From positions 186,001 to 250,000 of the forward strand of contig CAJQUW010001818.1 in the NCBI GenBank assembly GCA_907163375.1: a DNA stretch of 64,000 bases, given 5' to 3'. The notes beneath the pieces are model-generated. The model did not search any database. It saw only the letters and a program-made list of their open reading frames with translations, and was not told where the DNA came from. The stretch comes from Prostheceraeus crozeri (lineage: Eukaryota; Platyhelminthes; Polycladida; Euryleptidae). Below, one piece after another: positions 11,301 through 61,982 of this stretch (position 1 is the first letter of the stretch; each line of letters starts with the position of its first letter). Both the position numbers and the translations under genes were made by a program.

Positions 11301-13664
11301 TACCGTAAAACCTGTAATTGAAGGCCACCTGTAATTGAATGTCACCTGTAATAGAAGGCCACCCTAGCGAGGAGGTTGAAAAATAGAAGGCCACCCTGTA
11401 TTTGAAAGCCACCCGTAATAGAAGGCCATCCTAGCGAGGAGGTTGAAAATAGACCGCCACCCTCTAACTGAACGCTCCTACAATCTCCAATAGAGTGTTT
11501 CTCTGCTGTAGCCTACATACAGCTTATAAAGGAAGAAAACATTCATCCTCTGGGGTCCTCAGAGATGCTTTGCCTCGTCTATCAGCTTGCCGGTAACTGT
11601 GTTTCCTCTGTGGGAGCTATATTTACAAGTACCGGTATATCTGATAGTCAATTCCCGCGTGCGCTAATGAAAGGAGCTGGCTGTTACCTCTCAATGCATC
11701 TCCCTCTGGGTAATACAACAGATTGACCTCTATCTGACTACAGCTTGATCAGTTGATGAATCAAAGGTTGCAACTACGCGTGATATCAAAACACGTGACC
11801 TGACTTCTGCCCATTGTTACCATCGATCCCTCATCGGTTAGTCTCGTCCAATAAGATTCATTAAAGTTCGTCCACAGGATTTATGTAGATACTGCATTAG
11901 TCATCAAAATTTTCGATCATCGCTGTAATGGATATTACTGACTCTGACATTGAAGAATCGACTCCGTCGAAACGAAGAAACTATGACATTAAGTTCAAAC
12001 TAGAAGTTGTCAAGTATGCTCAGAATTATAATAAAGCTAAGGCTGCAAGAGACAAAAATGTGCCTCGTACCTGTGTCAAGAATTGGATCAATCAGAGAAT
12101 GCAACTTGAATCTCAGTTACAACAACCTTGCTCAAGCTCATCTGATAAGAGACTACATGGCGCGGGACGGCCTTTGAAGGATGCCGACTTCGATGAGAAA
12201 CTCATCGCTTGGGTTCGTGAACAACGTGCGAAGAAGATTCGTGTCAGTCGCACCCTGATTCAAAAGCAAGCTCTCACCTTTTCTTCCGATTCGACCTTCC
12301 GGGCAAGCAACGGTTGGTTGGTCAACTTTTTGAATCGCCATAACCTGGTTTCACGTCGCCCAACGACAACTTGTCAAAAAGAGCCTGAACATTATGCTGA
12401 GAGGATAACCAATTTTCTTGTATTCGTCGAAAAACTAACTACCAATACATCTTCGCATCAGACGAGACAGCTGTCTACTTAGATAGCTCTAACAGTCTGA
12501 CAGTTGAGGAAAGGGGAACCCGTCAGGTGTCTGTCAAGACCGTGGGTCATGAGAAGCTTCACGTTACAGTCATGTTGACTGCAAGGTCTGATGGATTCAA
12601 ATGCCGACCATTTGTGCTATTGAAGAACAAGCGTCCGATCAAGCATATTGAGGAGAAGTTCAAAAACATTGTCTGCCTCTCATGGGCCGGTCGAACCTTC
12701 TTCAACGATGAACTGACGTCGGAATATCTGAGGAAGATCCTTGGCTATTCCATGTTCGGTAAACGCCTTCTTGTGTGGGACTCCTTCAGGTGCCACATCA
12801 GTGACTCAACAAAACAACAACTCAAGAAACTGCAAATCGACACCGCAGTAATCCCCGGAGGTTGCACCAAGTACATCCAAGCACCTGATGTGTACTGGAA
12901 CGCCCCGTTCAAAGCAAAGATCAGGCAATACTACGAGGACTGGATGGTATATGGTGAGAAGACGTATACCAACTCTGGTAACACACGCGCACCCTCGATG
13001 GAGGTGTATCTCGGATGGATAGTTGAGGCTTGGAAGCAGATACCAAGTGACTTGATCGAAAGATCGTTTGTTGGATGTGGACTTACCATCGCCCTGGACG
13101 GGTCAGAAGACCACAAAATTCATTGTTTTAAGCCGGAGGGCGAGATTCCGAATGGATGCGCATCTCTCCGAGAAGCACGAATTCGTGAAGCAAATAATGT
13201 CGACCTCGACAGCACTGATGAAACGAACAGCAGTGATACCGATGATGACAACTCGTTAGTTGATTTCGAGTAATAAGTGTAACACTCAGTTTGAATTCAA
13301 ATCTTTTGATCACACCAAACGTAATTATTGATGTTAGTGTCAATTTTGTTAAAATTTCGTCTCTTTTTATAAATCAATTAGATTTCATCAGAGTATTTAA
13401 GCTGACTTTTACACATTGTTTTATCACGTAAATGGAGTACCTACATGTAGGAGGCCTCTTCAACTCAACGGGGTTTCAACTGATTTGAAACATTTGAAGT
13501 TGAACTATAAAATTCAAATTTCTATAGACCTAAAAATACCGAAAATTGATGGTTGTAAATTAGAAGGCCACCCTGTAATTGAAGGCCACCTGTAATAGAA
13601 GGCCACCTTACCATGGAGGTTGAAAAATAGAAGGCCATGGCCTTCAATTACAGGTTTTACGGTA
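11301..13664 (+). mobile_element. Nearly complete pogo/Tigger transposon
   Basis: The ends TACCGTAAAACCTGTAATTG and its inverse (ending at 13664) include the TA target duplication. Inside each end are several copies of a GTAATTGAAGGCCACC-type repeat, some separated by CCTAGCGAGGAGGTTGAAAA (11301-11475 and 13544-13664). The 2.36 kb body holds one transposase gene in two frames (11928-13273). This is the expected size for a full-length Tigger-type element. A deleted relative lies at 18574-19289. Confidence 0.9.
11928..13273 (+). pseudogene. Tigger-type DDE transposase, one frameshift
   Basis: The first part (11928-12482) has a psq-like helix-turn-helix at residues 15-60, followed by a CENP-B-type DNA-binding domain at about 75-140 (GWLVNFLNRHNLVSRR). 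The second part (12527-13273 from its first ATG) is open back to about 12422 in its own frame and carries the DDE_1 catalytic core. The first Asp is in FASDETAVYLD near 12465, the second in LLVWDSFRCH near 12780, and the third in YIQAPDVYWN near 12890, so the likely triad is D-D-D. A single indel in the A-run at about 12429-12438 separates the halves, with no other break. The acidic C-terminal tail is shared with the relic at 18838-19152. It would act in the nucleus on its own TIRs. Confidence 0.88.
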
Positions 13665-13956
13665 TGTCATATTTTATGCGTATGCAAAATATTCATGTAC
13701 TGTACATGTACATTATATTAAAAACATGCGAGAAGGGATGACATCGGATATTTCTTCAGTTCTTAAAAATGGATGCCGTGTCCCGAATTCTAAATACATG
13801 TAACTTAAAAATCGCGAATAAGTTGCGATAAGCCATCGAAATACATGTATAACACAGCATCGATGTGCTATGTAGTGTTGTGAGTCATCAATTTTTACAG
13901 GAATGTGACAGGTAGTCCCTCCCGCTGGCGATTCAACAGGGAATTCCTCAGATATT

Positions 13957-13979
13957 ATATATATATATATATATATATT
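13957..13979. repeat. (TA)n tract at the 5' border of the Penelope-like element
   Basis: An alternating AT run sits exactly where the truncated Penelope-like coding sequence begins. It mirrors the longer tract at the other border (15487-15528). Confidence 0.85.
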
Positions 13980-15484
13980 CCTATTCTACCAACCTTGCAA
14001 AGTGGCTTGATCAATTACTGAAACCTCAAATCCCAAAAACCTTTTCTTTGAAAGACACTTTTCAATTTGTTGACCAGCTGAAAAATCTTGATGTTTCTGA
14101 TCAGTCGTATAAAATGTATAGTTTCGATGTTGTCAATCTCTTCACCAGTATTCCTTTGAAGAGGACCATCAGACACATTGTCTCAATGATTGATTTCAGC
14201 AAATTACCTATAAACTCGACTGCATTATCGAGTTTATTAGAACTGGCTTGCGAAAATATTTTGTTCTCATTTAATGATAATTTGTATTACCAAATCAACG
14301 GCATGTCCATGGGGTCCAGTTTAGGACCTACCATGGCAGCCTTCGCTATGGATCTTCTTGAAAGCCAATTTCCTAAGTACGACGGCAATCAGCCATTTTT
14401 CTATCGTCGCTATGTAGACGATTGTTTTTCTCTTTTTCGTAACGATAATGAAGCAGAAAATTTTTTGAATTTTCTGAATTCCCTAGATGATGATTTGAAA
14501 TTTACGATGGAAAAAAGTGTCAACGATTCTTTGGTTTTTCTTGACACTAATATAACGTTGAAATCAGAGCAATTCAAAATTGACTTTCATTTGAAAACTA
14601 CCAATACAGGAGTTTATATACATTTCCACGCATATGCCCCCAAGCAGTATGAATTAGCTGCTATGAGATCCCTCTTTTACAGGGCTCATCGTATTTGCTC
14701 TGATCGTTCTTTGTACGATAATGCTGTAAAAAAGATAACTGAAATATTTAAACAAAACGGCTTCCCAGATCCTCTTATAAATGAAACAAAATCAAAAGTA
14801 GAACAGAAGATTTTTCAAAGCCAGCAATCGATTGTGAAAAATGATGATAAGAAAGCCATTTTATATTGGTCCGTTCCGTTCATTGCTGAAGGCAGTAAAG
14901 AGTTTAAAAACAGAATCAAAGACTTGAATCACTATTTATCGAACACTACCATCAAACCGGTTTTCAAAACCTCCAAAATGAGTGATTATTTTCCTAACAA
15001 AGATAAGATTGCCAGCGGTCTGAAATCGAATGTTGTTTACAAATACTTTTGTGACCGTTGCAATATGCGGTACATCGGCGCTACAAAACGCCATCTTGAT
15101 ACTCGCATCGCTGAGCATCTTAAAGGTTACCCTGTCTTGACAGAAATTTCTATGCATGAACACAGTCCTGAGAAAACGAACTTTAAAGTCATAGGTCGGT
15201 ACAAGTTGCCCTTTATTCTGGAATCTATTTTAATCAAGCAAGATGTGAAATGCCTGTCCAACGAACGGAACGGATCTCACCCTCTCTACCTCGGATTGTC
15301 TGACTAGCAATTGTTAATTTTATTCAATTTCCATGCTTTAGTGATTTCATATATAAGGCGAATTTTACTTTATTTTAACGATTTGTCCGCTGATGATGGT
15401 GTAATGAACACTGAAACATGTCCGGTTGAGAAAAGACAATTTGTTTTTCTTTATCATGAAATCAACACTGGGTTCACTATGCGT

Positions 15485-18430: not shown

Positions 18431-18573
18431 CTCAGGCATGGTTTCGGAAACACCCGATTGTACGAAGTGGGACCCAGAGTAGCAACAATCAAGTCCAGTC
18501 CACCTTGTACCAAACTAGCAGTCGCCCTGCACCATCTTTTGAGACCCTGATGTGTTTGCAATAGGTGAAGACA

Positions 18574-19289
18574 TACCGTAAAACCTCTATTTGAACGGCA
18601 TGCCGCTCTATTCTTCAAACCTTTCCCCGCATTGCCGCTTAATTAGAGGTGCCGTTCTATTTTTTGACTAGCTGATCAGAATTTAGAGATGAAATTTTCA
18701 GTAATTTTTATCTTAGATCTGTAAATTTTATGGATGAAAAGCGAAAATATGTAACATAAGAACTCTGCATATATCTATTTGACAAAAGTTAACAAACACA
18801 GGTTGCCGGTAATCACTGGTTAGAAATTACAAACTCACTAGTTAAAATCAAGTGACACGTCGCTGTTGTAGCTGTCCTCGTCATTCGCATTACCTTCAGC
18901 ATCATCGTCAAAGTTCTGATTGATTCCACGTTCGACACCAGCATTGGCTCGGGCTTGCCGGAGAAGTTGCAAACCAGTCTGAATTGGACCGTCCGAGTCT
19001 GGCTTGAAACAATGGATCTGGCAATCCTCCGAGCCGTCGAGAGCGTTGGTCAGTCCGCATCCTTTGAATGACTTGATGATCATATACGATATTGCATAAA
19101 TACGATGCAGCTCCATTGAATGGGACTTCCCAGCCTTTAAAAATAGCTCCATAGCATTCTACAAACTATGTATTTTCCTGTTTTACACGTTTTACAGAAG
19201 ATTATTTCAGTCATGTAATTGATGTAGGAGATGAATTCATCAAAGTGTCGTTAGATTAGAGGTGACGTTCAATTAGAGGTTTTACGGTA
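18574..19289 (-). mobile_element. Internally deleted Tigger relative
   Basis: The ends TACCGTAAAACCTCTATTTG and the inverse (ATTAGAGGTTTTACGGTA, ending at 19289) match the family of the 11301-13664 element over the outer 12-13 bases, then diverge. TA target bases are included at both ends. The 716-bp interior keeps only the last part of a transposase on the minus strand. It inserted between two codons of the BEN-like frame. Confidence 0.85.
18838..19152 (-). pseudogene. Tigger transposase C-terminal tail
   Basis: The 104-residue frame contains FKGCGLTNALDGSEDCQIHC, closely matching the C-terminal segment FVGCGLTIALDGSEDHKIHC of the transposase at 12527-13273, and then an Asp/Glu/Asn-rich tail as in that protein. 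The DNA-binding and catalytic domains are gone. The first 30 residues match nothing in the full copy and may be fused from the 5' end. No stop interrupts the tail. Confidence 0.8.
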
Positions 19290-20689
19290 AATGGTCGTAA
19301 GGGTAAGGTCCCCATTGAGCTCCTCAACCCCGATTCGCTTGCTCGTGTCATTGTGACTTCCATCAGAAACAACCCTGTCGGCAATCCTCCCCATTATCAG
19401 GGGCGTTCACTAGCGCTGACTCTGGCGTCTCAGGGACACATTGCCAGTTACGTGGTTGTCTCCCTCAGTCATAGGCACGAGCTGGTAGGTGCCAAACAAG
19501 AGCCAACCTGACACCAAGTTTTCAAGACAAATCATCACTACCTCAAGTACATTTCTGTCTTAATGTCAGAACGGTCGCACTCATGATGAGAGGTCGTAGA
19601 ATATGCTTGGGAGATAATAAACGGCAATTAACAAGCGTGGCCTTGCACACAAAAGTGTATCCGGCATAGATGTTGCTTAAAAATGCATTTTTTATCAAAA
19701 AGAAAAAGGTGTTGCCGTAATTTGACAAATTTGAAAGCTTCCCAAGCCACAAGGGTTGGCAACTTCTTGATAGATCCTCGAAATAACGGTTTAGATATTG
19801 AAAAAAGTGCATAATGATAATAATTATTATTAGTGTTTCTTCAACTCAGCTCTTCAAGTTTTTATTGCAAAGCTGTATTGTATGGGCTAACAATTGATGC
19901 ATTTTTCATTTGACTGCAGATTATTAGGCAACTTCTTTTTCAGATATGAAAGTCGCGATTCATGTGATTGGGCGATGGAATGTCTTAATGGAGCATATTT
20001 TGGTGATGGTAAGAAGAATTTGATTTGATTTGCAGCTGATCCTCTGACTTTTTTCATTTTGCTTTCAGAGGAAATGGAAAACAAGGCATTAGAGTGTAAA
20101 ATCTTGGAGCATTAATCAAGAATTTGTTGACTTTATCAATTTGTTTTTATAAGTGAAGCAATTTGCCGCTTCAATGCATTTGTTTGTATAAGATTCACAC
20201 AGATTTTGTAAACGGTTTTATATAGAAACGTTGTTTTCTCCAGGGTGTGTTACGGGAACGCAAATAACTTTGGTGAAGAAAAGATCTGGTTCTGATCGTA
20301 AAGCATGCGAGAACTCGAATCTTCTCACAACTATACACAAACGGTCTAGGTGAGTAAAATCATCAAAAAAGGCAAAACATGATGCAGTCGATTCATAGGT
20401 CCTTCATTTGTTGATTTATGAGTTTCGGAACTGATCACTTCACCTGAAGGTTGCATTATCCAAATGAGCGTGCGAAATTGTTGCTATATGCAAACAAAAG
20501 GAAAAAATCTTTAAAGACACGTTTCCAGGCTTGTGTTTGGATGCTTTTTCTGCTCAATCCCAAAGCTAACACAATTATGGCATTTGACAGCAACTAAACT
20601 AGCAGCGCTTGATTTCTTTCACTCGGCGAAAGCTGAGCAGACAATCAGCTGGTGACTGGTGTTAGGCCTCATAGACAAAGATAAATAAA

Positions 20690-23176: not shown

Positions 23177-23972
23177 CCATCTACTAGTGATGTAAAATTA
23201 CCGGTAATTTTTGAATTGAAATATTACCGGTAATTTTTGAAAAAATGGGTAATTTTTGAATTTCAGTATTTGGTGTAATTGCACCCATAATTAACGTCTG
23301 ATATCCTAGACATGTCGCTCCTGTCTATATAACACAGTCAGTTGATAAATTTCAGTTTTCATTGCGAGTTAAATTGCAAGTCAAGCTTCTTGACTATAAG
23401 TTCGACTGCTTGTAAAGATAAAGGGCGCACGTATACTACGTGTACAGTAGCCTCCTACGTACGTCGTAATGATGCTCCTATACACATTCAATAGTGCAAG
23501 AAGTGAAGAAGGGGGCAAACGAGTTTCATCTGTCTGTAGACCTATAGTGTAGGCTATGTACGTACATCTACTGCAGTATATTGTAGTATATGTGCGGGAT
23601 GTAGGCCAGGTCTTATAGCGGTACCGGTGTCCGGTACCTTACTTTAATATCAATACAAAGCTATTTGTCATATTTCCATTGTGGTCTCTAGTGCCTTTTT
23701 CAAGACAATTCCATGTTTCATATGAAGTTGGGATAACTTTAACGTTCAACCGGTACGTCCGGTAGCGGTAGGGCCTACGTGTATACCTGAGTGAGCGATA
23801 ATGATTAATCAAACTTATGATAGCAATTGGGTAAGACAAAAGTCAGGCACTGTGCCCTGTAATTGAGCTTTGTGATTTAAAAAAGTTGGCTAAAATTCAA
23901 CATTATGTACAACTACAAAGTACAAACCCAAACGTTTCGCGAGACACTCCTAGGCCTAGGCTTATCTCTGAC

Positions 23973-25124
23973 TAGTGTTCAAAAATTACCGGTAATTTAT
24001 TTTAAGTTACCTTACCGGTATTTTACTGGTAATTTAACGGTAAATTACCGGTAATTATATTCAAGTCCGTATAACTTCAAATCGAGCGCACCAATATGCT
24101 TTGATTTCAACTAAATACACAATTGGCTTAATCTGATTCTGATGAACGTTTGATTTTTGCTCAACTTCTGATTCTTTGTCATAGATATTTCAATTAAGAA
24201 ATGAAAAATTGACTTTTTTGAGAAGTTTGTTGTTATTTCACCCAAATAGACCATAATAATCAAAAGTTTGACGGCAAATAAACATTGTTCTAGGGAAAGG
24301 CCACACGCTCTATAATATTTTGTAAATTATACACTGCAGATCCTTCTTTCTATAAATATAATCAAAACTGGTTGTCAATGCTAGATGCGAAGTAAATTTA
24401 GATACATGGAGACAATATTGTTTCAAGAAATGTATTTTGATTACTACAATTAGTAATAAATATTAGCTACTATAATATGAGAGAGAGATCATCAATGGAA
24501 TATGCAGATATCGTCCCTATTGCAGCCACCTGGTAAAATTGGACAATACGCGCGTCGGCTACAATCATCATAAAGGTGCATAAAGGCATTGATAAGAGAG
24601 CAATAGCGATCGTCTCAACCAATGAGAGACCAGAATTAGAAGATTTTAAATGCGTGTTGAAATACTTCTCTGTAGAACTTGACATCGACTGTGTCTCTTT
24701 GTTGTGTGATACGGTTGATAACAGTCACTGAAGCTTCGCACAATTTGGCGTGTTTACTATCAAACTGGCTGCTTATTGTTCGATTGCTGTGGTAATATGT
24801 CAGCAGATAGTGCCATTTTATTAACGTTACATGTTCCTATGTTTCCTTTCTAGTCAAACAGAAGAAGAGAAGACCGGTCTAATTCTGTGGGTATAACTAT
24901 TAACATCGAATTCTTCATGCACACCTGGTTGAATACATTAATAGATTAGATACATAAGCTATGATTTAGTAATTTTAAGAAACTCTAAATTCTTTAGGCT
25001 ACCTGAGAATTGTGAGTGTATTGGAAATGAAATTTTGTCACAGCAAAATATAATGAGGAAACCCCGAAAAATGAACAATTGTGTATCGGTAATTTACCGG
25101 TAATTTACCACACTTCAATCACTA
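23973..25124. mobile_element. hAT element, perfect 8-bp TSD, same end family as its host
   Basis: The left end TAGTGTTCAAAAATTACCGG pairs with the right end, inverted TAGTGATTGAAGTGTGGTAA followed by ATTACCGG. The duplication TCTCTGAC is identical at 23965-23972 and 25125-25132. The 1152-bp body has no recognisable transposase; a 71-residue minus-strand frame at 24470-24685 is not convincing. The ACCGGTAATTT repeats at its ends are shared with the surrounding 23185-31649 shell, so it probably used the same transposase. Confidence 0.9.
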
Positions 25125-25331
25125 TCTCTGACCAGAACCAGATGACACAGTTAATTATAAGAGTCGCTGGTACTCGAGTATCGCGTCAGGTGACTAGCTC
25201 TTCTTAACGGTCCATCTTTGGTCTGTCATGTGTATCTAATGAGTTGAGCTTCAGATAATCGATTTTCTAACGGAGATTTATTTCTGGTAGGGCCTAGTGA
25301 TTTTAATCGCAAACTCAGTGATACCTAGCGC

Positions 25332-27323
25332 CAGAGTTGGAAAAGTCGGAATTGGAATTAATTCCGATCCGGAATTAATTCCATTTTTCATCGGAATTGG
25401 AATTGGAATTGACGATATTGAAATCTACTGGAATTGGAATTGACCTTGATAAACCTCAATTCCACTTTTTCGATAGACCTGTGATAAATCTATTTGTACA
25501 AAAATTGAAATCACAGTACTCGGTCGTTGTGTTAGCTACACGCAGAGATAAGAGAGAGATAGATCGACAGAGGTAGCTTTATTCTATAGTTGAATATATA
25601 AGTTGGTGTTTTCTGTGACTTCTATGGGCCTACAGCCCCGGACAATGTTATTTTAGCAGACATGTTATATTAAGCAGACAATGAAAAGACAATCATCTTT
25701 GTTCAATTTGTTATTTGTTATTTATCAAGTAAGATAATTAATCAAAATATAGCAATTGCTGAATTTAGCTCTTGATAGGATAAGCACAAAAATTGGAGAT
25801 TAACTTAATTGTTGTACACGCGAAAAGCAATTGATTTGGAAAGAGATTGGTTTGGATTAACGGTGCATTAAAGGGCAGCAACCCTGTCAGTTCAAATCAT
25901 AATATAGACAGTGTCAGCAAATTATTCTAATAATTAATTATTCAATTACATGAACTATCCGCTTAGTTAATGTATAACTTAGTTAATACCGCTAAGTACT
26001 AGGGTAAATTGAAGCGACAATTCTGACAACCTCAGTTGGACAGAATTCACTCGCTGAGTAAGCTTGCTAAATTCTCTTTTTGTACATTTGGTTCGAATGA
26101 GTTATTATTTATTGGTTTCCAATTGTATTTTCAGTAGCAGTAAGGTAGTTTTGTTTAAACAAATATAAATAATAATCTAGAGGGTAGGGGAGTGAGTAAG
26201 TTTAAACTTTAAAACCCTTAAACATTGTATTTGATAGGGTTAGCGTATAACGTTTTAATTATTATTCAACTTCCAATCACAACAATTTACAATATTAATT
26301 TTTAAGACTATAGTTATATAGATACGATACGCAACGACAAAAGAAAACGTTACACTTGCAGTTAGTTCACTTTCTTAATGTTAAATTCATTTCAATTCGA
26401 TCGGACTCACTTATACCAAAATAATATCATAAACATCAGTGTCACTTATACCGTCAATCTTCAATCGCGCTCGCTGATGTTTTGCCGTATACGCTGCTGT
26501 GTTGTTGTTCGCTGACAGGCTGTTGTTGTTACTTCTGTAGTTACTTTACACCGCGAGAGCCCGGAGTTCTTCTAACTGCTACTGAAGATGTCGTATGTGT
26601 TGTTGTTGTGTCAATTTCTCATCGTTTCTAATTTATACAAATTTTTGAGACTTGACGATAAAGCCACGTTCTTTTGAAATTGAAAGAGTTTCCTTTAATC
26701 CCTGCTCGTTAGCTTTCGACCCAACCACATTTCGTTTTTATCACGGAATTTTTAATCTCCTTTTTTAACATGGACCATTAATCAGACTTCACGATATCAT
26801 TTTTGTCGTCGTTTTTTCTTTCATCAACAGTCACGTTATTCGCACACTGAATTTCTTTCTTCTGTCAGTTTATTTATAGATTTATTCGCATCTCATCTCA
26901 CTTTCTCTCTCTATCTCTCTCTCTCAGCGTTTGATTCTTAGCTGACTGTTAACTTTCTTTTCTTTTTTCACGAGATAATCTCGTGAATATCTCGTTTACG
27001 AAACGAAAATGTCGTAGGCTGACCGGTTACATATATACATGTACACAAGAAATATGAACTATGAACATGAAAACGCACATAGGAACGACGCAGGGAACGG
27101 CACACAGGAACAACGAGGATAGGATAAGGGCACATATGGGTTAGATTGAAACGAACAAACGTTAGATACATTATCATAAGACACTATACGCGACATGCAA
27201 TTATCGGAATTGAATCTTATTATGGAATTGAATTGAACTGTTTCGACTGGAATTGGATTTGGAATTGAAATTTCTGCTCCGGAATTGGAATTAAAAAATT
27301 TCTGTGGAACTTTTCCAGCTCTG
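25332..27323. mobile_element. hAT element with GGAATTGGAATT subterminal repeats, perfect 8-bp TSD
   Basis: The ends are CAGAGTTGGAAAAGT and the inverse of CAGAGCTGGAAAAGT. The duplication CCTAGCGC is identical at 25324-25331 and 27324-27331. Many GGAATTGGAATT repeats line both ends (25355-25475 and 27205-27300). The 1992-bp interior has CT-rich tracts (26895-26930) and GTTGTT runs but no transposase, so it is non-autonomous. Confidence 0.92.
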
Positions 27324-28513
27324 CCTAGCGCACTGTTATGTTCAATTTTGGAGTGTTCAGAAAGCGCACTTGTGTTTGTCTGCAAGCGACCAAGCGTAGC
27401 TGAACGACGTTCGTGTTCCTCAAAAATAACATTGAAAAGTTATGTCAGTCTGACCTAGGCTATGTATTTTTTATTGCAATGCCACGTTGGTCTAAACTCG
27501 TAGGTAATAATCTACTTACGAAACGAAGATCGCAATAGACGCGGTCACGATGCAAGCAAATTACACTAATGAGAAAAAATTGATCAGCGTGCTGATTTTG
27601 TTAGGATTACTACACGAGCGAGGTTGCTTCAGCTTTTTCTTAGTGTTTGACTCAAGATACAGCAGGTCTAATGTAAAGTTGTCGAGTTTTAAAATCTAAG
27701 CAAAATAATTGCTTCAGATTGCCTTTGTAATACTTCCATACTAAGGTTTTCTTATTCACCATCACCCTGAAAATAGATGAAAATTCTCAAATACAAGGGA
27801 AGTTTTAACATATATTACTCATGTTATCAATATCAATACTGATAAATATACAGAAGGACAATTAGAAACGTAAGCGACATCACCTTTGTAGACATGTCTG
27901 TAGGCCTATCTGCCAACATAAAACAATCATGAAACGACACTAAAACTTGAGTGATTTTTCAGAGACTAAGTTACTAGGTGCCCACTGGTATTGGAAAAAT
28001 GAACACTATAGGGCTTAGCCAAGAAGGTAATAATAAGTAGCAGTGCCGAAACATAGCACATACCGGTTTTGGTATATGGGCAGTTCCACGTAAGATCAGA
28101 CAATAAACTCAAAAAGTAAAAATGAGCTATGGATAGTTTTGCATATAATCATTTGTGCTTGGATACACTGAATTTACTGAAAATATGAATGAAATTTCCA
28201 CTGGCACCATTCTCTTGATGAATTTTGACAATTTCATGAGGTAGCCCGAAATTCAATTCGAAGAATGAAATTTGATAAATCTGGAAAGTTAGTATTTCGG
28301 ATAATAAAATTATCACAAATGCTCATCTGTGCGGTTGAATGAGCGTTCCATTGAGAAGGTTTGGTTGATTTGTTTCGTGTTTATAGTTTGATTTCCTCGT
28401 AAAATATGCATTTTGATGACAAAATCAAAAAAGTGAATTTGTTATTTGGAGTGAATTCAGAGGCACATGATGTAATAACGACAAATAGGAAAGTGGTCAT
28501 TGCGTATCGAAAC

Positions 28514-30100
28514 CACAGATCTAGAAAGGGATAGATGGACTACTCCCCGATTTGCGTGAAGCCTGCTTTCCCTGCCACGCGCGCGCGCACAATCCCGGTA
28601 TGTAGGCAAGAAACAAATGTCGGCATGCACGTGTCTATGAGAATGTAATGATAAAGCACTATTAACATTCAACGACGATACTAATTGATAACGAATCATA
28701 GGGAAAGTATTGACAATTCCTGATCCTGCAATGTCATACTTTCATCTCACATCATGATGATTTATATAAAAATGTAGAAAATAGAAGAATTTTAGGTGCG
28801 AATTGCGATGAACGTTTTTTTTTTTAAAAAAAAGAAAATAAATAAATTTATTTGCCTCTAAAGAAAATCACCGTCATTGCCTGCCTGCCTGACGTGAATA
28901 GGACTTTTGAATTCAAGATATTAACTTCAAAACCATATCGTACCGTCCGAAGAGGCGAAACATGACATAATTCGACGTCTGCCAGCCTGATGTTAGATGA
29001 TCCGAGTCTTGATGAAAGAAGTCTTGATGAAAAAAAGGTCTGCAAAAAGGGGTTAAAAAATAGTTTATAAAGTTTTTACATCAACTAGGAAAAGGACAAA
29101 ATCAAAATATTATCAATCAATGTTCGATATTGAGGGGAGTCACATCGTGAGAACAAAGAAAAAAAGAAGCGCAAAGCTAACTCACCAATTTACTTTTTAC
29201 TATATACAGCGAAACTAGGAGTGGATGCTTTGCTTCTCTGCTTTGCTGAAAACAAAATAACATCTTATACATCCTTCATACTTCCTTCATCATCGCCCAT
29301 TGCATTGAGCAAGCATGAGAGCAATCATCGAAGCGCTGGCAAACTGAAACGACCCATAAACCCTCACGTCTCCAAAATATTAGACTAATAGTCTCGATCA
29401 GTTCAAAAATTCATCAACATCACATAGAAATAGCAGACACTCAGTCATCATCACCACCCACATCACTGAGCTCAACTCCACTACAGGGATTCCACCACTC
29501 AGCTCGAGGGAGAAAGCTGTGGTGAAAGTCCGTGTTGCTGTTGGTAATATCAGCATTAACATTAGCATTATTCGAAGGTTTTATAAGTTATTCATCAAGA
29601 GGGAACTTGAACGCGGTTGCACGGGATTATTGTTGAAGCCACCACGCTGCCGTATCTTGCTGAATAAGATCTCGAGATGATCCTGCGATGTTTTGTACGT
29701 CAGAAAAAAAGAGTGGCCACGCTCTTGAATCAGATGTTCGCAAAGATCGCGAATAGAATGAACAGTAACCTTGAATCCCATTGTAGGAATTCTTCTCCTT
29801 GAATCAGCAAGTGGAACATGATCATTAGTGCACAAGGATTCAAGATATCTGAGAGCCATTTCGAAAAAGGGTTTCCATTCGCCAGAATTACTTAAAGAAA
29901 GGGGCGCCTTGTCACCCTTATCAAATAAATCATCATCAATTGAAAACAACACCACAGGTGTCAATTGCGATCAGCTCAGCGGCCGTCATTTCTTGCCTAC
30001 ATACCGGGAGCAGGCGTGGCGGCGATGGGAAGTTTTCAGGCTTCACGGCTGAAATAGGGAAACGCGGAAAGCAGTCCATCTATCCCTTTCTAGATCTGTG
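28514..30100 (-). mobile_element. P-element-like transposon, perfect 8-bp TSD
   Basis: The ends start CACAGATCTAGAAAGGGATA and continue for 28 bases as perfect inverted copies. Shared inner blocks follow (GTGAAGCCTG, CCACGC, CCGGTATGTAGGCAAGAAA). The duplication ATCGAAAC is identical at 28506-28513 and 30101-30108. The body (1587 bp) keeps only the C-terminal part of a P-type transposase on the minus strand, so it is an internally deleted copy. The size of the duplication fits the P superfamily. Confidence 0.92.
29581..29964 (-). pseudogene. P-element/THAP9-type transposase C-terminal fragment
   Basis: The 127-residue frame ends with the signature LTYKTSQDHLEILFSKIRQR followed by GGFNNNP (residues 88-113). 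This is the conserved block that provides an acidic catalytic residue (Glu98 in DHLE) in P-type transposases. Residues 20-80 match the preceding helical region loosely. The THAP zinc finger, GTP-binding region and first two catalytic Asp residues are absent. A shifted frame just downstream (29420-29580, on the minus strand) remains open for about 47 codons and may be the true C-terminus after a frameshift. Confidence 0.82.
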
Positions 30101-30253
30101 ATCGAAACACTCAATCAAAAAAGTCATCCGATGACGTCACATGCTATTTTAAGCATATTTAAGCCAGTTTTTACCTCTGAAGTCCGTTATTTCTCAATGA
30201 AAGTGGCATGAAAGTGTAATTTTAGCACTTCAGATCAGTCATATTCACATCCT

Positions 30254-30450
30254 CGGTACTTCTATTATCCCCCACATTTGACATCAACATTAGAATCCAT
30301 ATTATTCTGAGAAACTTTGCCCAATTTTGTTGAGGATAGGTTTTAACTGTTAAAGAGAGCAGGTACAACACCACAAGAAGTGTCACTTGGACCCTGGCAT
30401 GAAATATTGGCTCCATAGATATTGGTTGGAATATGAGATGCGAGCACAAC
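30254..30450 (+). repeat. Dispersed copy of the 2846-5472 end family
   Basis: CGGTACTTCTATTATCCCCC and CACATTT at 30254-30280 match the terminus at 2844-2873. A downstream block (ACTTGGACCCTGGCATGAA) matches 2979-2998 (ACTTGAACCCTGGGATGAA), with comparable spacing. No second inverted end was found nearby, so this is a one-ended fragment inside the hAT shell. Confidence 0.55.
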
Positions 30451-30762
30451 TTTACTAGAAATGCGAGAGTACTTTATTGAAATAGAACAACCTACACGCA
30501 TTTGATAAAAGAGGCATCACGTACTACTCGGTATGCGGCTAATACAAGCCTAAAATCCTAAGTATATAGCCTTTAAACTAAGAACTTGAATGACTCCGTT
30601 AGAGATAAGCCTATCATAATTGCCACTGTCACAGTAATCTGCTAAATTTGAATTATCACACGGTTCCGTTGTGTAAAACAATCTATAAACAGCTCAGTCC
30701 CCTAAGGCTTACGAACATGCTGTTGGATAATTCGAAAATGCACTTCGGTGTCAAATGTAAAG

Positions 30763-30813
30763 ATGAAAATTACCACACTTGTCAACACTTTGACAAAGTG
30801 TGGTAATTTTCAT
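30763..30813. repeat. 51-bp hairpin
   Basis: ATGAAAATTACCACACTT-GTCA is followed after about six bases by its inverse (TGACAAAGTGTGGTAATTTTCAT), with a single unpaired base in an arm of 22-23 bp. It lies inside the hAT shell. It may be a collapsed pair of transposon ends or a short structured transcript. Confidence 0.6.
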
Positions 30814-31657
30814 GCTTACGAATATATTCACTCGACACCATGTGGGCTACCCGTGTGGTATTTACTAGTATGTATACCGGTTGGTAGGGCCTACCGGCAC
30901 CGGCATTGGGTGTGCCTCATACAATCTAAAGATTTGCCTGGCCATATCCGGTGTACGGTAGACTACGCCCGAGTTTTCTATCTTGAGTGAGTATTACATC
31001 TATTTACCGGTTTTTCATTGCGTAAGTCGTAGTCTGACATAGCTATGTGTAATCTAAGCAATCCTGGAAATTCAAGTCACACATATATTTATACTGCTTT
31101 CATATGCAATGGGCCAACTGCACCATGATAGTATTATCGCACTGTGCATTCAAATGTTCGCTTGCATGCGAGCCACATGGAGAAACTACATTATTAAATC
31201 AACTTAAGCTTGATACAAATCTAATGTATTTGAAACACAAACACCAATAGAAAGGTGAGTTGCTCACAAATTCACATGAACACAGGCTTTTAAATGCAAA
31301 TATTTTCACAAATCTGCGGTCTGGAACTGATAAAGCTACATCAAACTACGTACAAATTATCTAGAAACTGTTTGTACTAATTTCATGAAGAGTTGCCATG
31401 CAAGTTTAATTGATTTGATTAGAAGACGATATGGATGATGACGTCATGTGATAAATATCAAAATTATGAACACTATGCTTGAATTATATAGCTTTTCTAA
31501 TATCACTACTGTTATAGTAAGTAAACCATGTCTACAACACACTTCATGATCAAAATAGAGCAAATAAATCAGTTTTAAAATCAAAAGGTACCGGTAATTT
31601 ATGGTCAAAAGTGAAAAATTACCGGTAATAATTACCCTTCACATCCCTATCATCTAC

Positions 31658-40571: not shown

Positions 40572-41921
40572 TTAGCACTGACTTTCATTGAGAGGAGAAA
40601 TGTAAATATTATATCCATTGGCCAATGCCGTAAGTGGGGCGGGGAACGAACAAGTTTTAAGATGGCTGATTTGGACGTATTTAACAAATGAAGCCAGTTC
40701 ATGAGGAATCTTGAGGCTCGCTACCTTTTCTTGGAATCGAACACCACCGAGCAATTTCCGAAGGCGATTACGAGCGATAAGTTTGAGTGACAAAGGCTGT
40801 TCATTGAAAGAAACACACACACCCTGAAGAAACTTTAGCCGTGCATTGAATTCTGACCGTCTCTCTGTATAGCGCTTCGAGTAAAGCTTTCTAAGTTGGA
40901 GGTTTTCCAGATTTTCCTTGAAATCCTCTAGAGAAGGAAATGTGCAACGAAGGGAAAGAAAATTGATAAGTAGAAGGCCAGCTTGGTGGATAATAGGCGG
41001 AAGAAGGGAGTCGCCATAGGAGTCCATTTTTGGGTGACTTAGGAGACTGAGAAGGATGCCATACCAGTTATAACAGGGAGAGAGAAATTCTAGACACTCA
41101 AATTGTGAGAAGCCATGCTGAATCAGACTCTTCACTGCAGCCAACTCCGCGAATCCGGATTCGTCCGCTTCCGTGATATCAGGCACTGTGGCATTTTCAT
41201 TCGTGTAACGACAAAGATACCAGTCAAAACTATACGCCAGGCAATTTAGCACGATGACTGAATCGATGCGCTGAACGTTGACATTCTTCTCCAATAATGT
41301 GGGAAGTTGCGCGAGGTAGTAGGTCAGTGGACTGGTGACTGTGTCACTCGCATTGACACACAACATGTCTTCGCCCACGAATTCATAAATACTGCCGAAA
41401 TAGTAGTCCAAGGCGGATTGGTAGGTGTATTTTCCTCTTGTCCAAAACTTCTTGTAGGGTGTGGCCGAAGAGCGGGTGCTTGGAGAACAGAGATACGTCC
41501 AACGTCGGCACATTAGAGGTCGGTTGGGGTCGAGTCCGTATTTAGCCAGCAACGGAAGCATGTGCCACTGCTGACAATCCAACGCCCAGATAACGGGACT
41601 ACATTCCTGATAGAAGTGAAGAAATGGGTCAGAGTTTCTGTCCATCCAGCACGTGAAGTTGGGTTTTAAATGACGACGTTTGACGGATACGAGGATATGG
41701 CCTGAATCAGTAGTTAGACGACGCAAAAGGCGTTCGGTGCCGTTCAAGTCACCTTTCTGGATAACCGACGCCAGTTGTGTTTCATCATCCGCTCGGGATC
41801 CATCGCTGGTACAGAAACAGTTAAGAGTGAATCGGAATGGACTTCTCACGGTTACACGAGTCTCGTCGACCAAAGATCGGCGCTCTGAGGGCGCGTCCGA
41901 GCTGTTGCTGTTTCCGAGCAT
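40572..41921 (-). CDS. Ankyrin-repeat and SOCS-box (ASB-like) protein, intronless
   Basis: A single 449-codon frame. Residues 376-418 form a SOCS box: PLSLKLIARNRLRKLLGG corresponds to the elongin B/C-binding helix, and LKIPHELASFVKYVQI to the LPLP-type Cul5 segment, although the second Pro of that motif is absent. Ankyrin-like helices are seen at 48-80 (LASVIQKGDLNGTERLLRR) and 108-136 (SPVIWALDCQQWHMLPLLAK), with more divergent helical repeats between. ASB proteins recruit substrates to Cullin5-elongin ubiquitin ligases through the ankyrin part. The substrate cannot be inferred. The first ATG is used, and no better in-frame start or splice site was found upstream. Codon use and GC are higher than in the surrounding DNA, supporting a functional host gene. 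An upstream coding exon cannot be excluded. Confidence 0.75.
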   Translation of the reverse strand: MLGNSNSSDAPSERRSLVDETRVTVRSPFRFTLNCFCTSDGSRADDETQLASVIQKGDLNGTERLLRRLTTDSGHILVSVKRRHLKPNFTCWMDRNSDPFLHFYQECSPVIWALDCQQWHMLPLLAKYGLDPNRPLMCRRWTYLCSPSTRSSATPYKKFWTRGKYTYQSALDYYFGSIYEFVGEDMLCVNASDTVTSPLTYYLAQLPTLLEKNVNVQRIDSVIVLNCLAYSFDWYLCRYTNENATVPDITEADESGFAELAAVKSLIQHGFSQFECLEFLSPCYNWYGILLSLLSHPKMDSYGDSLLPPIIHQAGLLLINFLSLRCTFPSLEDFKENLENLQLRKLYSKRYTERRSEFNARLKFLQGVCVSFNEQPLSLKLIARNRLRKLLGGVRFQEKVASLKIPHELASFVKYVQISHLKTCSFPAPLTALANGYNIYISPLNESQC

Positions 41922-42300
41922 GGAGGACTCAATCCACTAGTGTAAAGTCATTGACGGTTACAGAGCACAGTGGATGGGAGGAGCGGAGAAGCTGGCGTTT
42001 ACTGCTGTGCGATTTCTCCTCCTTCCTCAGTACAGCCTAAAGCGGGATGCGCGCGCTACACAACTACTTGCCGAGGGAGAATCGATGGCGTATCGATCTC
42101 CTGTCTGTCGACTGAGAGAGAGAGATGCGGAGAAACATAGACATCGACGTGGCCACCGTAACCAATCAGAGCGCGGGATAAGTAGCGCCGCTTTCAGTAC
42201 AACGTCAGCACGCTTGAAACAGTGTAGCTGCTGCTGCTGCTATTGTGCTGCTGCTTCTATTCAGTAGAAAAGGCGACGACTATCAGGTCACCAGAATTGA
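41922..42300 (-). promoter_or_regulatory. Presumed promoter/5' UTR region of the ASB-like gene
   Basis: The sequence upstream of the ATG is richer in G+C and CpG than the rest of the window (for example GATGCGCGCGC near 42040 and GAGCGCGGG near 42170) and carries a GCTGCTGCTGC run at about 42227-42254. No TATA box was identified with confidence. It fits a CpG-type promoter, but the start site is not defined. Confidence 0.35.
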
Positions 42301-49503: not shown

Positions 49504-50208
49504 TCAAGGTACCCAATTGTTCATCTTGTCGATATGTACCAGTTTTGGGTCTCGGCCAGTCCGGAAACAACCTAAGGGGTAGATAGCAATGGGAGTTCCC
49601 GTAAGTCGGAGAAGGAGGTCGAGACAGCCACTGAGAGTTGTCTTGTGATCGGGGGAATCAATCTGGACACGGTAGGACACGTTGCGGAAGGATGCACACA
49701 AATCCATGTCTCGCCCTGCGCACAGTGTCGGCGGATAGTCTGCTAGCAAACTTTTTGCGGCGATTGGCTTATCGTCGTATGTTAGGCGCACTCGCAGCTG
49801 TTTTTCTTTCAAGACATAGGTAAAATTAACGCATCCTTTCCGCTCCATGTAGAACCGTTGCATGGTGAGTCGTGCACAACACGAGCATTCGGATGAAATA
49901 GACTGTCCACAGCGACATGACCCGGAGTTGACGTCAAAGTCCGGTTGAACAGAGGCAAGATATGCTCGTGTATTCGACACTTCTTTGCTCAGTTGACGGA
50001 AGAGCATAGTGTTGGACTGTAGCCGTTCCAGCCTCTCCGCCGAGACGTTGAAGTCATAGGGAATGCGAATGACTTTGGCTTCCGACGGATGGGCAGCAGC
50101 AACTGGAGCTATCCATTTCTTCATTGCTGCTCGTGCACGCGTGCCATCCACCAGCCACCGCAGATCAGCAGCAACAGCAGCGTGAGTTCCTTGATTGTCC
50201 TGCGTCAT
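49504..50208 (-). CDS. DUF4773-type cysteine-rich protein, terminal exon
   Basis: A strong acceptor (TTTCATTTTCTTTTCATGCAG) ends at 50209, so the exon begins at 50208 (codon ATG ACG, phase 0) and runs to the stop at 49504. Numbering from the ATG at 50214, the domain spans about 100-205: CRCGQSISSECSCC (Cys 100, 102, 110, 112, 113), GCVNFTYV (Cys128), LRVRLTYDD, Cys165, Cys173 and GCLDLLLRL (Cys197). This CxC...CxCC...CVNxTY...CLDL pattern is that of DUF4773, a family of mostly secreted invertebrate proteins of unknown function. No signal peptide lies in this exon, so one or more 5' exons are expected upstream on the minus strand. Disulfide bonding and secretion are inferred from the family. 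The frame has no breaks. Confidence 0.7.
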   Translation of the reverse strand: MTQDNQGTHAAVAADLRWLVDGTRARAAMKKWIAPVAAAHPSEAKVIRIPYDFNVSAERLERLQSNTMLFRQLSKEVSNTRAYLASVQPDFDVNSGSCRCGQSISSECSCCARLTMQRFYMERKGCVNFTYVLKEKQLRVRLTYDDKPIAAKSLLADYPPTLCAGRDMDLCASFRNVSYRVQIDSPDHKTTLSGCLDLLLRLTGTPIAIYPLGCFRTGRDPKLVHIDKMNNWVP

Positions 50209-50557
50209 CTGCATGAAAAGAAAATGAAATCAATACACAGTTCAATGATTGCACGACGCACGACAAAAGAAGTACATAAGTACTGAATTGTAGGAGGTAT
50301 TTTCATAAATATTAATTGATTGTTGAATGCAGATATTTGCAATTAATTGTCGACCAACATGATTGCCATTACCAATTGATTGTTGGATTCCTGCTGCAAT
50401 TGAATTGAGTTGACGACTGTGAACTTAATGAGAATGCGGACGACATGCAGCATGATGAGGACACTGACGGGCTCCGAGTGGGATGAGTTAGCAATTATTA
50501 ATCATCATGTTCTCATGTGTGAATTGAACAGAATATGATGCACTTAATCGCATTCAC

Positions 50558-54442: not shown

Positions 54443-55165
54443 CAGGGGTGCGGAGTCCTATCATTTTGATAGGACTCCGACTCCGGGTGGCAAGTATATA
54501 AAGCCTAGTTTTTTGAAAAATTAACTGGTAACCTACATCATAGATCATTATAGGCTTACCTGAACAATCATTGCTGTATCAATTATCATTCATTTTCGAT
54601 GAAAGTTTATCAAATGTCGCTTTCAGTTACATGCATGCTACTCGGCTCCTCCCATCTTCTTGATGTATGCTTCACACGGTTTTTCTCCAGTCTCTACCAA
54701 GCAGGAAAATCCCCATTCTTCTCCAAAAATATGATTACACCTTCGATTTTAATATGCGCTTTAGAGGAGCAATCACACACGATTAACGTGAGGGTAAGAG
54801 GTAATGTTCTCAAACAAACTAGTATTTCATTTTTGTCTCTGATGTGACCTTTGGCGCGTAGGTGTGATCGAGGCTAGGAAGGCTTGTCTTCTCTACTAAA
54901 TGATCGAGTGAAAAGACAATTCCTTGTTCACTATCATGGTTCATTCGCTCAACTATTACAAGCTCTGCACGCACTGCTGTCTGTACTTTTGCTTGACGGA
55001 GAAAGTTGACATCAAGGCAGTGACAGCCATGGACGAGAATAAATAATTTGCTTGTATTATATTTCGGGTCTAGTCATAGGCCGGAGTCTGGAGTCCTATC
55101 ATTTGATAGGACTCCCGACTCCAGCAAAAATGATAGGACTCCGGGACTCCGACTCCGCATCCCTG
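54443..55165. mobile_element. hAT MITE with GGAGTCCTATCAT ends, perfect 8-bp TSD
   Basis: The left end CAGGGGTGCGGAGTCCTATC pairs with the inverted right end CAGGGATGCGGAGTCGGAGT. The duplication ATTTAAAA is identical at 54435-54442 and 55166-55173. TGATAGGACTCC repeats occur as hairpins just inside both ends (54454-54485 and 55089-55150). The 723-bp interior is non-coding; the 82-codon frame at 54599 is unremarkable. Confidence 0.92.
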
Positions 55166-57260: not shown

Positions 57261-57675
57261 TACGTGATCACTAGGGCGGTTTTTTATTGACCTAAAAAAT
57301 TACGAATTTTGACTTTATTTTCAAGTAAATTTTTACCAAAAATTTTGACTTAAATGTAAAATTTTTACCCAATCTTTTTACCTAATTCAGTTTTTTTTTA
57401 ACCAAAGAAAACATTTCAGACTCACAAGAAAACGTTACTTCTTTTAATTAAAGAAACACATTTTATTATTGAGCCCACAAATACAAAGTTCTTCACGAAA
57501 AGAAGGAATGCCTCTTAAACAACGAGTTAATTGTTACTGGCGTTGTAATTCATTATTGCATAGTATCTAATGTTTTGGGGAGAAAAGTTTCTGTTAAAAC
57601 GCAGGAGATTTTTCAACTGGGAAAAGCTTCGTTCGATCGCAGCTGTGGTTGATTGTGCACACAACAGAAGATTGT

Positions 57676-59790
57676 ATTATTAATAATAATAATATTCTCT
57701 ATTTATCCTCGAAACACAATAGGGTTGACCCTCTTTCCGTTGTGGTCGAGTAACATGATAAAGAGGGATAAGGTAAAAATACAAAAATGAAAGAAAAGTA
57801 AATGTCACTTTCAGAAGCAATCCAGATAATACTGGTAACAGGCTGAAGTAAATTGTCGATAGGTCGGTAGAGCGAATAGGTTATGGTAATTCATTGAAAC
57901 AACGTGGGCCAGTAACACGAAAGGAATTGTCACCAAATTTGCAACGAGAAAAATGAACGTGCATCTTTTGATCTGTGAATGATCTCAATGAATTCCTTTT
58001 ACATCTACTTGTGGAAACTTTGACAATATCTGAAATATTCGATGGAGTCATATTGTGTTGTGATTTATACACCATTTGAACAACTTTTAGCTTGTGGCGA
58101 TACTTCAAAGAAAACCAGTTTAGTTTTTTGAACATATCAATGGATGACATGTCAGCAGAACATTTGACATTCAAAATCAATCGCATTGACTTTCGAAGCA
58201 GAATTTCAAGGTCATTCATTTGCGTTGCATTACACCAGCCCCAAATCGATGGACAGAAGTCAAAATGAGGCAAGATGAAGGAGTTGAAAAATTGTCGGCG
58301 AGCATGAAATGGGAGAAAGTCTTTCAATCTGAATAAATCTGAATAGTTTTGATCTGACTTTCTGACAAACTTTACTGATATGGGCACTCCAAGATAAGTT
58401 TTGCTGAATGGTAACGCCTAGAAGGCGATGACAGCTGGTGTTCATAAGAGTTGTCTCATTCAATTTCAATTAAAAATCATCAATGTCAGCGAGATGAGAT
58501 CGCTTTTGGTTGGTAGATAAAAGCATGGATTTTGATTTGCTCAAATTAATGGCCATTTTGTTGTCATAACACCATTTTGAAACAGTTTTTAGATCATCAT
58601 TTAACTTCGATGACAATGAGTAAAGGTCACACGATGATGTATGAATTGTTACGTCGTCAGCATAGCATTCAGTTGTACATTTATCCAGACTGATACATAA
58701 GTCATTCAGGTACATGATGAATAAAATCGGCCCAAGGACAGACCCCTGAGGCACTCCAGATATAATTGGCAAACTTTTAGAGCAAATCTTATCAACATAG
58801 ACAATCTGGCTTCGGTTCCTTAAATAGCTTTCAAGGAAAGAAAGTTCGTTATCTCGAATTCCATACATTTGTAACTTTCTTAGTAGGATAATGTGAGAAA
58901 CTGACTCAAAAGCTTTACTGAAGTCAAGATAGATAGTACCAACAACCTCCTTATTCAGCAAATTTTGAATCCAATGGTCGTGAATAGACATGAGTGTGGT
59001 CTCACATTAATGGAATTTTCGAAATCCTGATTGCTTGGCGTAAAGGTCATTTCTGTTCAAAAACTTAACCAGATGGCAATGCACAGGACGTTCGAGGATT
59101 TTTGAAATCGCTGGCAAAATACTTATTGGACGAAAGTTCTCTGGGTTCTTGGAAGAACCTCCTTTGTGCACAGGAATAACTTTTGCGATCTTCCATGATT
59201 GAGGAAATTTGCCTGCTCTCAAAAAATTATTCATGATTGAAGTTAAAGATGGTACAATAACCGAGGCTGCAATTTTGAGAAATAGAGGTCTATGACCATC
59301 AAGACCGGATGATGAGGAAGCTTTCAAGCTAAGGAAATGTTTCTCAACAAAGCGGATGTCCAAGAGAGGCAATGAGAACAATTCAAATTCCCTTTGATTT
59401 AGGAATCTTTGCATTACGTCGACGGATATATCGACATGACTCAGATCAATTCAGTTGGTGAAATACCGTCACGTGCCAAGTTAACAATCTCCATGATATC
59501 ATTCTTAGATAAACGCAAGTTTATACATGATTTGATTTCACAGGGATCAATTCCGAAATCCAGACTGTTTACGTCCTGCATTACCTGACGAATGTTGTAG
59601 TTGGTTCCTTCGCATCGCTCCATTAGATGATGCAGAGGTCTATACGTTGCACATCCACGCGTTGGTCAACAATTACTGTGCTGGAAACTTCAGATTTTGC
59701 ACGACTTACAATTCTCATACGATGATGAAAGTCATCCCAGTAGCCATTTATAATAGAATATAATGCTTACTAATTTAAATTATTAGTTAA
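57676..59790 (-). mobile_element. 5'-truncated non-LTR retrotransposon (LINE) inside the hAT
   Basis: The 3' end lies at the (ATT)n tract 57676-57692 and the 5' border is between about 59640 and 59850. It holds a degraded reverse transcriptase gene on the minus strand. A short-repeat tail instead of poly(A) is typical of CR1/L2/Rex-type elements. No endonuclease domain remains. Confidence 0.75.
57881..59623 (-). pseudogene. Reverse transcriptase of CR1/Jockey-like LINE, with two stops and one frameshift
   Basis: From 59414 the frame reads KASSSSGLDGHRPLFLKIAA, IPVHKGGSS and FRPISILPAISKILE (RT fingers). After an in-frame TAA near 58998 it continues with the palm: IYLDFSKAFESVSH (catalytic Asp), SGVPQGSVLGPILF and CYADDVTIH (catalytic Asp pair). 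A second TAA at 58470 precedes the thumb-like HRLLGVTIQQNLSWSAHISK, and a frameshift near 58340 moves to the frame of 57881-58387 (FFNSFILPHFDFCPSIWG). All three catalytic Asp residues survive, but the gene is dead. Confidence 0.85.
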
Positions 59791-61319
59791 AGTAGTCCTA
59801 AGGAGGACTGATGGCGTTCTCCAATCCGCAAGTGTACAAAGGCAATGCTACTGTAACCATTGGATTAATCAGTTCTTAAAAGAACTCAATGTAGCTTTCT
59901 CGTGGCAACGAATTAAAATTGATCAGCTTTGGCCCAATATCTGGTAAAAATGGAAATCTTAAGACTTGTAATACTACTCATTCTTGCTGTTAATATACTA
60001 ATACCATAGATTCCAAACACTGCCGTATACACGTTCAAAACAGACTTCTAAAAGTAATCCATCATCCTCGAAACCCAACACAATTTGTTTGACGTCGGAA
60101 AAGTGGTCTGCATACCAAAAAGCCGCGTTTAGGCATGTTCCCCACCTGGTTACGACCGGCTTTGGTGGACTTCCAATCGATGCAAAAAGAAGACGGCGAT
60201 CACCATTTTTAACAGTGGCAGCCTTGATTGAGGAAATCAAACTGTCGACAGCCTCATACTTCGACTTCACAAGCAATGCACAGTCGTGCAACAGGTGTGC
60301 CATACACCTTACATGAAATAATGATGGATACATAGACTTCAAAGTTTTGCCCGCAAGAGTCATATAACGAGCTGCATCAGATAGCAGTAAAAGGAAATTA
60401 TTGCGATGAACATTTAAATCTTTAACAACATCATCAATAGCATGGCACACTGTTTGATGATTGATGTTTCCTTCTAGCTGTCTACAGTCATACAGATAAG
60501 TAACTTCAGGCTTTTCTAGAATTCCGACAAGAATGTTCATAAACTTCCGACCAGAAATTTCCGTTTCGTCCACCAGTATAATTTTTTCCCCATTCACATA
60601 TCGAAAGAATTTTTGTTGTTCTAACTGAAAGAGTTTTGGCACATGTTGCCGACCTGATGACTCAGATGGGCAATGATGACCCATAAAATCAAATAAATCT
60701 CGTATTGCTTAATGCTCCAATTTATGTAAAGGAATGTCAGCGGCTAAAAACGCTGTTGTTACATGCTTAGCCAGATCAGGTTTGAAGTTCAAAAAGGTCT
60801 GACTTTCATGCTTTGATGAGGTAGGTACTGATGATGAAGAGGTAATTCTTTATAACTTCGTCGCATGTTTGACATTTTTACGATGACTGTCAATCATAAA
60901 CTGTTTCGCGTATTTCACCGGGCATTCACAAAGCACACAGAAAAGTTCATTCCTTGGTGTTACTTTAAATTCTTGAGGATATTGGCAAGTAATTCTTTTG
61001 CACTTGGATGCGTCACTTTCAGCTGTCTTGGGCATTTCGAACAATCGAAGATAGTCAGTGTCAGTTAACAAAAAGATGTAGTTATGTGCGTTGAAATCCT
61101 TGCGAGAACACTTGGTGTCACAATAGCTTAGCTTTTTGTTTTGATTGAAAAAGAGTTCGGGGGAGTTCTAAAAATAGCGCTTAGGAAGGCCAGGTGTCTA
61201 AAAATAGCGCCTAGGAAGACCAGATTCCTGAAAAATTTACTGTCTTATTTTAACTTTTTGACCTTATTTGACTACATTTGACCGTATTTTTACTTTATTG
61301 ACCGCCCTAGTGATCACTC

Positions 61320-61980
61320 ATCGACACGATGAGACAAGGTGTGCGGGTGGTGGTGGAGGGGGCCATCTCGTGACCCCGGGAATTCCCGGAAAACTTTGAA
61401 CCTTGCACTGGATTCCATCATTGTGTAAAATTATTAATTAAGTAAAAATATAGTCATTTTGACCCCACGAAAGGCTATCGAATCTACACTTCCACACGAT
61501 TAGATATTTTGATTGCTGTCATAGGATCTAAACAGCTGACTGAAAATTGCGTGGGTTCCTGAGATATTTCGCCAATATCAAGTGGATTCACTCATTAATG
61601 ATTTCTTAATGACAATTAATCCCTAGAGGACCTACCAGGTAGAATTTCTGGATTTTTGTGCAACATCGGGTTGTTCTTGTTATTGTAATCTATGTCTCGG
61701 TTTTCTATTCAAACGAAAGATCGTGACAGATTTATAAAGGATATGCGCACTAACTTCTTTGAGCATAGAGAAGCTCATGATAATGAATAAAGGCGAAGGT
61801 CACCCAGAAATGGGGTAGAAGCGCATACATCGATGAGATTGTTATCAACGTAATAGACCTTATGCGTTAACTCCTGGAGCCAAACCGTCATCTTATATCT
61901 CCTCTGCACAACAGACAAATGATTAATTCCGAATACTTTATCAGTGGACATCCGAAAGGCATCAATTGCTTCTAAAAATG
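61320..61980. other. No gene recognised
   Basis: An 83-codon minus-strand frame at 61775-62026 (with HLSVVQRRYKMTVWLQELTH) is protein-like, but it overlaps the tandem duplication at its start and has no known domain. The rest is non-coding. Confidence 0.3.
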
Positions 61981-61982
61981 AC

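Follow-up and report, generated by a model that had tools for sequence, protein, structure and literature searches.

A P-type and two hAT-like insertions side by side within a probable hAT-like shell in the polyclad flatworm Prostheceraeus crozeri

The 64,000-nt window analysed here (contig CAJQUW010001818.1, positions 186,001 to 250,000; all coordinates are those of the window) contains three transposable elements lying between a pair of matching outer ends, and the boundaries of the three inserts (23973–25124, 25332–27323 and 28514–30100) and of the enclosing shell (23185–31649) are exact to the base. An earlier note on this DNA had reported three insertions with identical 8-bp flanks between outer ends at 23185 and 31649 whose own flanks agree at seven of eight bases, and had estimated the shell at about 3.7 kb. 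We observed that all three duplications are perfect and that the coordinates and pairing of the outer ends hold, and the shell, which occupies 8465 bp as found, measures 3710 bp without the inserts and the second copies of their duplications. The description of the locus as a four-layer nest did not survive: the inserts are disjoint and lie side by side, which leaves four elements at a depth of two. Because the inserts interrupt the shell, the shell would be the earliest arrival, and because they do not interrupt one another there are two levels. Containment, together with one mismatch in the shell's duplication against none in those of the inserts, likewise points to an older shell.

Insert 3 (28514–30100, 1587 bp) is a P-type element, as indicated by its terminal and subterminal repeats, its 8-bp duplication and a transposase fragment. 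The duplication ATCGAAAC is perfect and present on both flanks (28506–28513 and 30101–30108), its length being that of the P superfamily, and the terminal inverted repeats pair at all 28 of 28 bases, again as in P elements. A second perfect inverted repeat, of 21 bp, is subterminal, with its left arm at 28593–28613 on the plus strand and its right arm at 29989–30009 on the minus strand. Between these arms, a 129-aa open stretch on the minus strand (29581–29970) corresponds to the C-terminal portion of a transposase of P type and matches PF21789 (TNP-like_RNaseH_C) with an E value of 6.5e-13 and 48.9 bits, against a cut-off of 24; it is through this C-terminal fragment only that the element can be tied to a P-type transposase. 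Residues 482–548 of the P transposase structure 6p5a align with the same stretch at a sub-threshold E of 0.11, and the comparison returned nothing at the default E of 0.001. Most of the transposase gene is missing from the minus-strand frames scanned, and a scan of the insert's three minus-strand frames revealed no N-terminal THAP domain, which fits a truncated copy. Pattern searches for relatives of the fragment returned 7 and 46 stretches in viral_contigs and genome_contigs, none of them confirmed; insert 3 had no match among phages, its end pattern had none in genome_contigs, and the right-end word of the shell and three end patterns had none in viral_contigs, all three being viral or prokaryotic collections that say little about a eukaryote.

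Inserts 1 and 2 both look like non-autonomous hAT-like elements. Insert 1 (23973–25124, 1152 bp) is flanked by the perfect 8-bp duplication TCTCTGAC (23965–23972 and 25125–25132), has short ends of the sequence TAGTG and carries the subterminal motif AATTACCGGTAATT, as the shell does. Only 5 bp of its ends pair without gaps, and its assignment therefore leans on the perfect duplication and the shared motif. Insert 2 (25332–27323, 1992 bp) is flanked by CCTAGCGC (25324–25331 and 27324–27331), likewise a perfect duplication of the 8 bp typical of hAT elements, and has short terminal inverted repeats, CAGAGTTGGAAAAGT and CAGAGCTGGAAAAGT, that pair at 14/15 positions, with GGAATT repeats in subterminal position. 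No Pfam family, and thus no hAT transposase, was detected in the four of six frames scanned for insert 1 or in all six frames of insert 2.

The shell (23185–31649) is flanked by CCATCTAC on the left (23177–23184) and TCATCTAC on the right (31650–31657), a target duplication of the 8-bp hAT length in which 7/8 bases agree. Its ends, TAGTGATGT and TAGGGATGT, are short inverted repeats that start with CA/TA and pair at 8/9 terminal positions, and each is followed by AATTACCGGTAATT. A six-frame scan of three shell pieces out of four (18 frames in all, the 199-bp piece 25133–25331 excepted) gave no Pfam family at E 0.1, and so no hAT transposase. With none of the scanned frames yielding a transposase domain, the shell appears non-autonomous, as do inserts 1 and 2, and since their label is read from ends and duplication length only, we describe all three as hAT-like and the shell as something short of a proven hAT. 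Of the earlier description as a hAT shell with two hATs and a P-like element, the P-type label thus gains strength from the PF21789 fragment, and the other three elements are borne out only as hAT-like. The palindrome AATTACCGGTAATT near the ends of both the shell and insert 1 suggests that both may have been mobilised by transposases of a single family. Self-comparison within the 64-kb window detected neither the shell nor any insert a second time at E 1e-3, the composition profile of the window shows nothing special at the shell, and Rfam gave no match anywhere in the window. The last shell piece also contains a near-perfect 63-bp palindrome (30757–30819) whose sequence AAGTGTGGTAA is also present at the right end of insert 1.

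Elsewhere in the window we observed further mobile sequences. A hAT-like element at 57272–61309 is flanked by the perfect duplication GTGATCAC and has 9-bp ends that are identical; on its minus strand it contains a DUF659 match at 59998–60708 (E 2.2e-7, below the Pfam cut-off) and a weak hAT dimerisation match near 57572–57676 (E 0.01), with a LINE reverse transcriptase (57881–59450, minus strand, E 1.1e-30) between these transposase pieces. No shared words of 9–14 bp were found flanking the LINE sequence within this element. A short hAT-like element of 723 bp at 54443–55165 has a perfect duplication, ATTTAAAA, and the ends CAGGGGTGCGGAGTCC and CAGGGATGCGGAGTCG. At approximately 11301–13664 lies an element with inverted ends TACCGTAAAACCTGTAATTGAAGGCC and two overlapping frames that encode HTH_Tnp_Tc5 and DDE_1 domains, an element we take to be pogo/Tigger-like, and a shorter element at approximately 18570–19293, with the related inverted ends TACCGTAAAACCTCT, is possibly its non-autonomous relative. 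The 463-aa open frame at 13916–15307 encodes an RVT_1 reverse transcriptase domain (E 5.5e-9) and may be Penelope-like from the look of its C-terminus. Two other open frames, one of 454 aa at 40572–41936 with a SOCS-box match just under the Pfam cut-off and one of 241 aa at 49504–50229 with DUF4773, may be host genes, and a tandem repeat with a 100-bp unit occupies 61966–62176 (2.0 copies, 98% matches).

As a control for chance, the window was compared with 40 dinucleotide shuffles over spans of 100–9000 bp. A rule that combined an exact 8-bp duplication with terminal pairing at 14/16 positions or more, low-complexity ends being filtered, returned three elements from the real sequence (inserts 2 and 3 together with the element at 54443–55165) and none in any shuffle. 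A second rule, which asked for an exact duplication, a CAG or TAG start and 5/5 pairing, returned four (inserts 1 and 2 and the elements at 54443–55165 and 57272–61309) versus 13 in the 40 shuffles combined; because such ends arise by chance this often, the identification of 57272–61309 leans on its protein matches. With a shared 10-mer added, this rule returned insert 1 and 54443–55165 in the window and nothing in the 40 shuffles. A third rule (duplication at 7/8 or better, pairing at 8/9 or better, CA or TA start) returned 45 candidates in the window versus 3 to 18 per shuffle, and 15 versus 0 in 40 shuffles once a shared 12-mer was added; 12 of these 15 are pairings of AT repeats near 13968 and 15500 and are not elements, which leaves the shell, insert 3 and 54443–55165. 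Both shared-word rules were set after the sequence had been seen. Under the rules used, including the post hoc shared word for the shell and insert 1, none of the 40 shuffles reproduced the anatomy of the nest.

The shuffle control is blind to the case of two unrelated elements from the same family, so the unity of the shell has to be judged by the agreement of its flanks. The ends at 23185 and 31649 could be what is left of two distinct short elements from a single family, each having lost its opposite end to decay, with ordinary DNA between them, as might be supposed from terminal regions that are clearly alike over only about 40–60 bp and with gaps, from an interior devoid of recognisable transposase, and from the imperfect duplication. 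Independent flanks would, however, seldom agree so well: random pairs of 8-mers from the window agree at 7/8 positions or more with a frequency of 0.00063, and only 17 of its 63,993 8-mers differ from CCATCTAC at one position or none. Four ends in the region carry the ACCGG motif, and among these the flanks agree at 7/8 for 23185 with 31649 and at 8/8 for the two ends of insert 1 (23973 and 25124). The four alternative pairings were rejected, with agreement at only 3 or 4 positions, so that apart from insert 1 with itself no other pairing exceeds 4/8. We therefore regard two separate elements as improbable, and a single shell, of which the window holds no second copy, as much the likelier arrangement on account of the flank agreement at 23185 and 31649, with the pairing itself drawn from one imperfect duplication and short ends.

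The earlier note had further proposed that P-type and hAT enzymes landed repeatedly in the same shell because it is a preferred or tolerated landing zone. In favour of this idea, the three insertions span 1381 bp of shell sequence, and the binomial probability of at least three random insertions falling inside the shell is 0.001 for four insertions and 0.002 for five, with the cluster selected after the fact. When any cluster is allowed, three of six insertions come to lie within 1400 bp somewhere in the window in 3.1% of random placements, a rough figure that treats the six as independent points and concerns a cluster chosen beforehand for its density. A shared target sequence can be rejected, as the three sites, TCTCTGAC, CCTAGCGC and ATCGAAAC, are unlike each other. 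The published motifs for the P element (GTCCGGAC) and for hobo (GTNCGNAC, or NTNNNNAN) are known to resemble one another, as given in the accessible part of the source (PMC3276498), and this likeness could in principle draw both kinds of enzyme to the same DNA. Measured against the hobo and P motifs as they appear in that part, however, the insert sites agree at 3/6 and 2/6 positions and insert 3 agrees with the P motif at 4/8, a level that about 6% of the window's 8-mers reach on either strand; NTNNNNAN is fitted by the site of insert 3 and by neither insert 1 nor insert 2. Nor is nesting special to the shell, because the hAT-like element at 57272–61309 in the same window also holds LINE sequence. 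Given unlike sites that match the motifs at two to four positions only, and clustering that is weak and post hoc, it is very unlikely that transposases making 8-bp cuts prefer the shell as a landing zone, and the stronger form of this idea, in which the AT-rich interior of the shell acts as a genuine hotspot for hAT and P enzymes through similar motifs and other copies would show an excess of insertions, is just as hard to credit. What is left of the proposal is the word tolerated, which holds for any DNA without genes.

By far the most probable history is that of a non-autonomous hAT-like shell hit later by three ordinary cut-and-paste insertions. An element of about 3.7 kb would have inserted at YCATCTAC, its transposase gene having been lost or never present, and three others would later have entered it at unrelated points approximately 788, 987 and 2169 bp into the shell: a hAT-like element of 1.15 kb with the AATTACCGGTAATT motif, a hAT-like element of 2.0 kb belonging to a different family, and a P-type element of 1.6 kb that lacks most of its transposase gene. 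Each event would have been a standard insertion with an 8-bp staggered cut, giving the perfect duplications. The transposases would presumably have been supplied from elsewhere in the genome, and the dispensability of the shell may explain why these sites were hit. The boundaries, duplications, terminal repeats and P-type fragment on which this history builds are directly visible in the DNA.

Comparable nests are on record. In Drosophila, a GalileoN copy at an inversion breakpoint holds BuT4, which is a hAT, and BuT3 as nested elements, both flanked by 8-bp duplications, and a further GalileoN copy contains BuT5, flanked by an 8-bp duplication, together with a LINE-like piece, as far as the accessible portion of that report describes them (PMC2775673); Galileo is assigned to the P superfamily in the available excerpt of a second study (PMC4168063). 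Within what these excerpts cover, the present nest resembles the GalileoN nest in having guests side by side with 8-bp duplications and in combining hAT and P superfamilies, but the roles are exchanged, with a P-superfamily shell and a hAT guest there and a hAT-like shell with a P-type element among the guests here, and the breakpoint role is a feature of GalileoN. P elements and P-MITEs of Anopheles gambiae have terminal inverted repeats of 27–31 bp and perfect 8-bp duplications according to the sections of the paper at hand (PMC1562414), and on that basis insert 3 resembles them in repeat length, in its 8-bp duplication and in being a shortened copy with P-type ends; it differs in keeping a C-terminal piece of transposase. 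The shell and inserts 1 and 2 are like hobo and Hermes, both hAT elements, in their 8-bp duplications and short terminal inverted repeats, and unlike them, so far as the available text of the two sources extends, in that no transposase was found and that nTnnnnAn is fully matched in 0/3 (PMC2803484, PMC3276498). Nested insertions were counted in 191 of 530 candidate coding MULEs in maize (36%) and 195 of 476 in rice (41%), as stated in the accessible part of that survey (PMC3903597).

The nest is ordinary genomic layering of a common kind and needs no special landing zone. A hotspot, if true, would link the target choice of two transposase superfamilies, a link that the present evidence does not carry. 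The locus adds unnamed copies of known superfamilies and no new mechanism; as an illustration of how nesting allows relative dating it is a clean one, and it shows P-type and hAT-like elements sharing one host genome.
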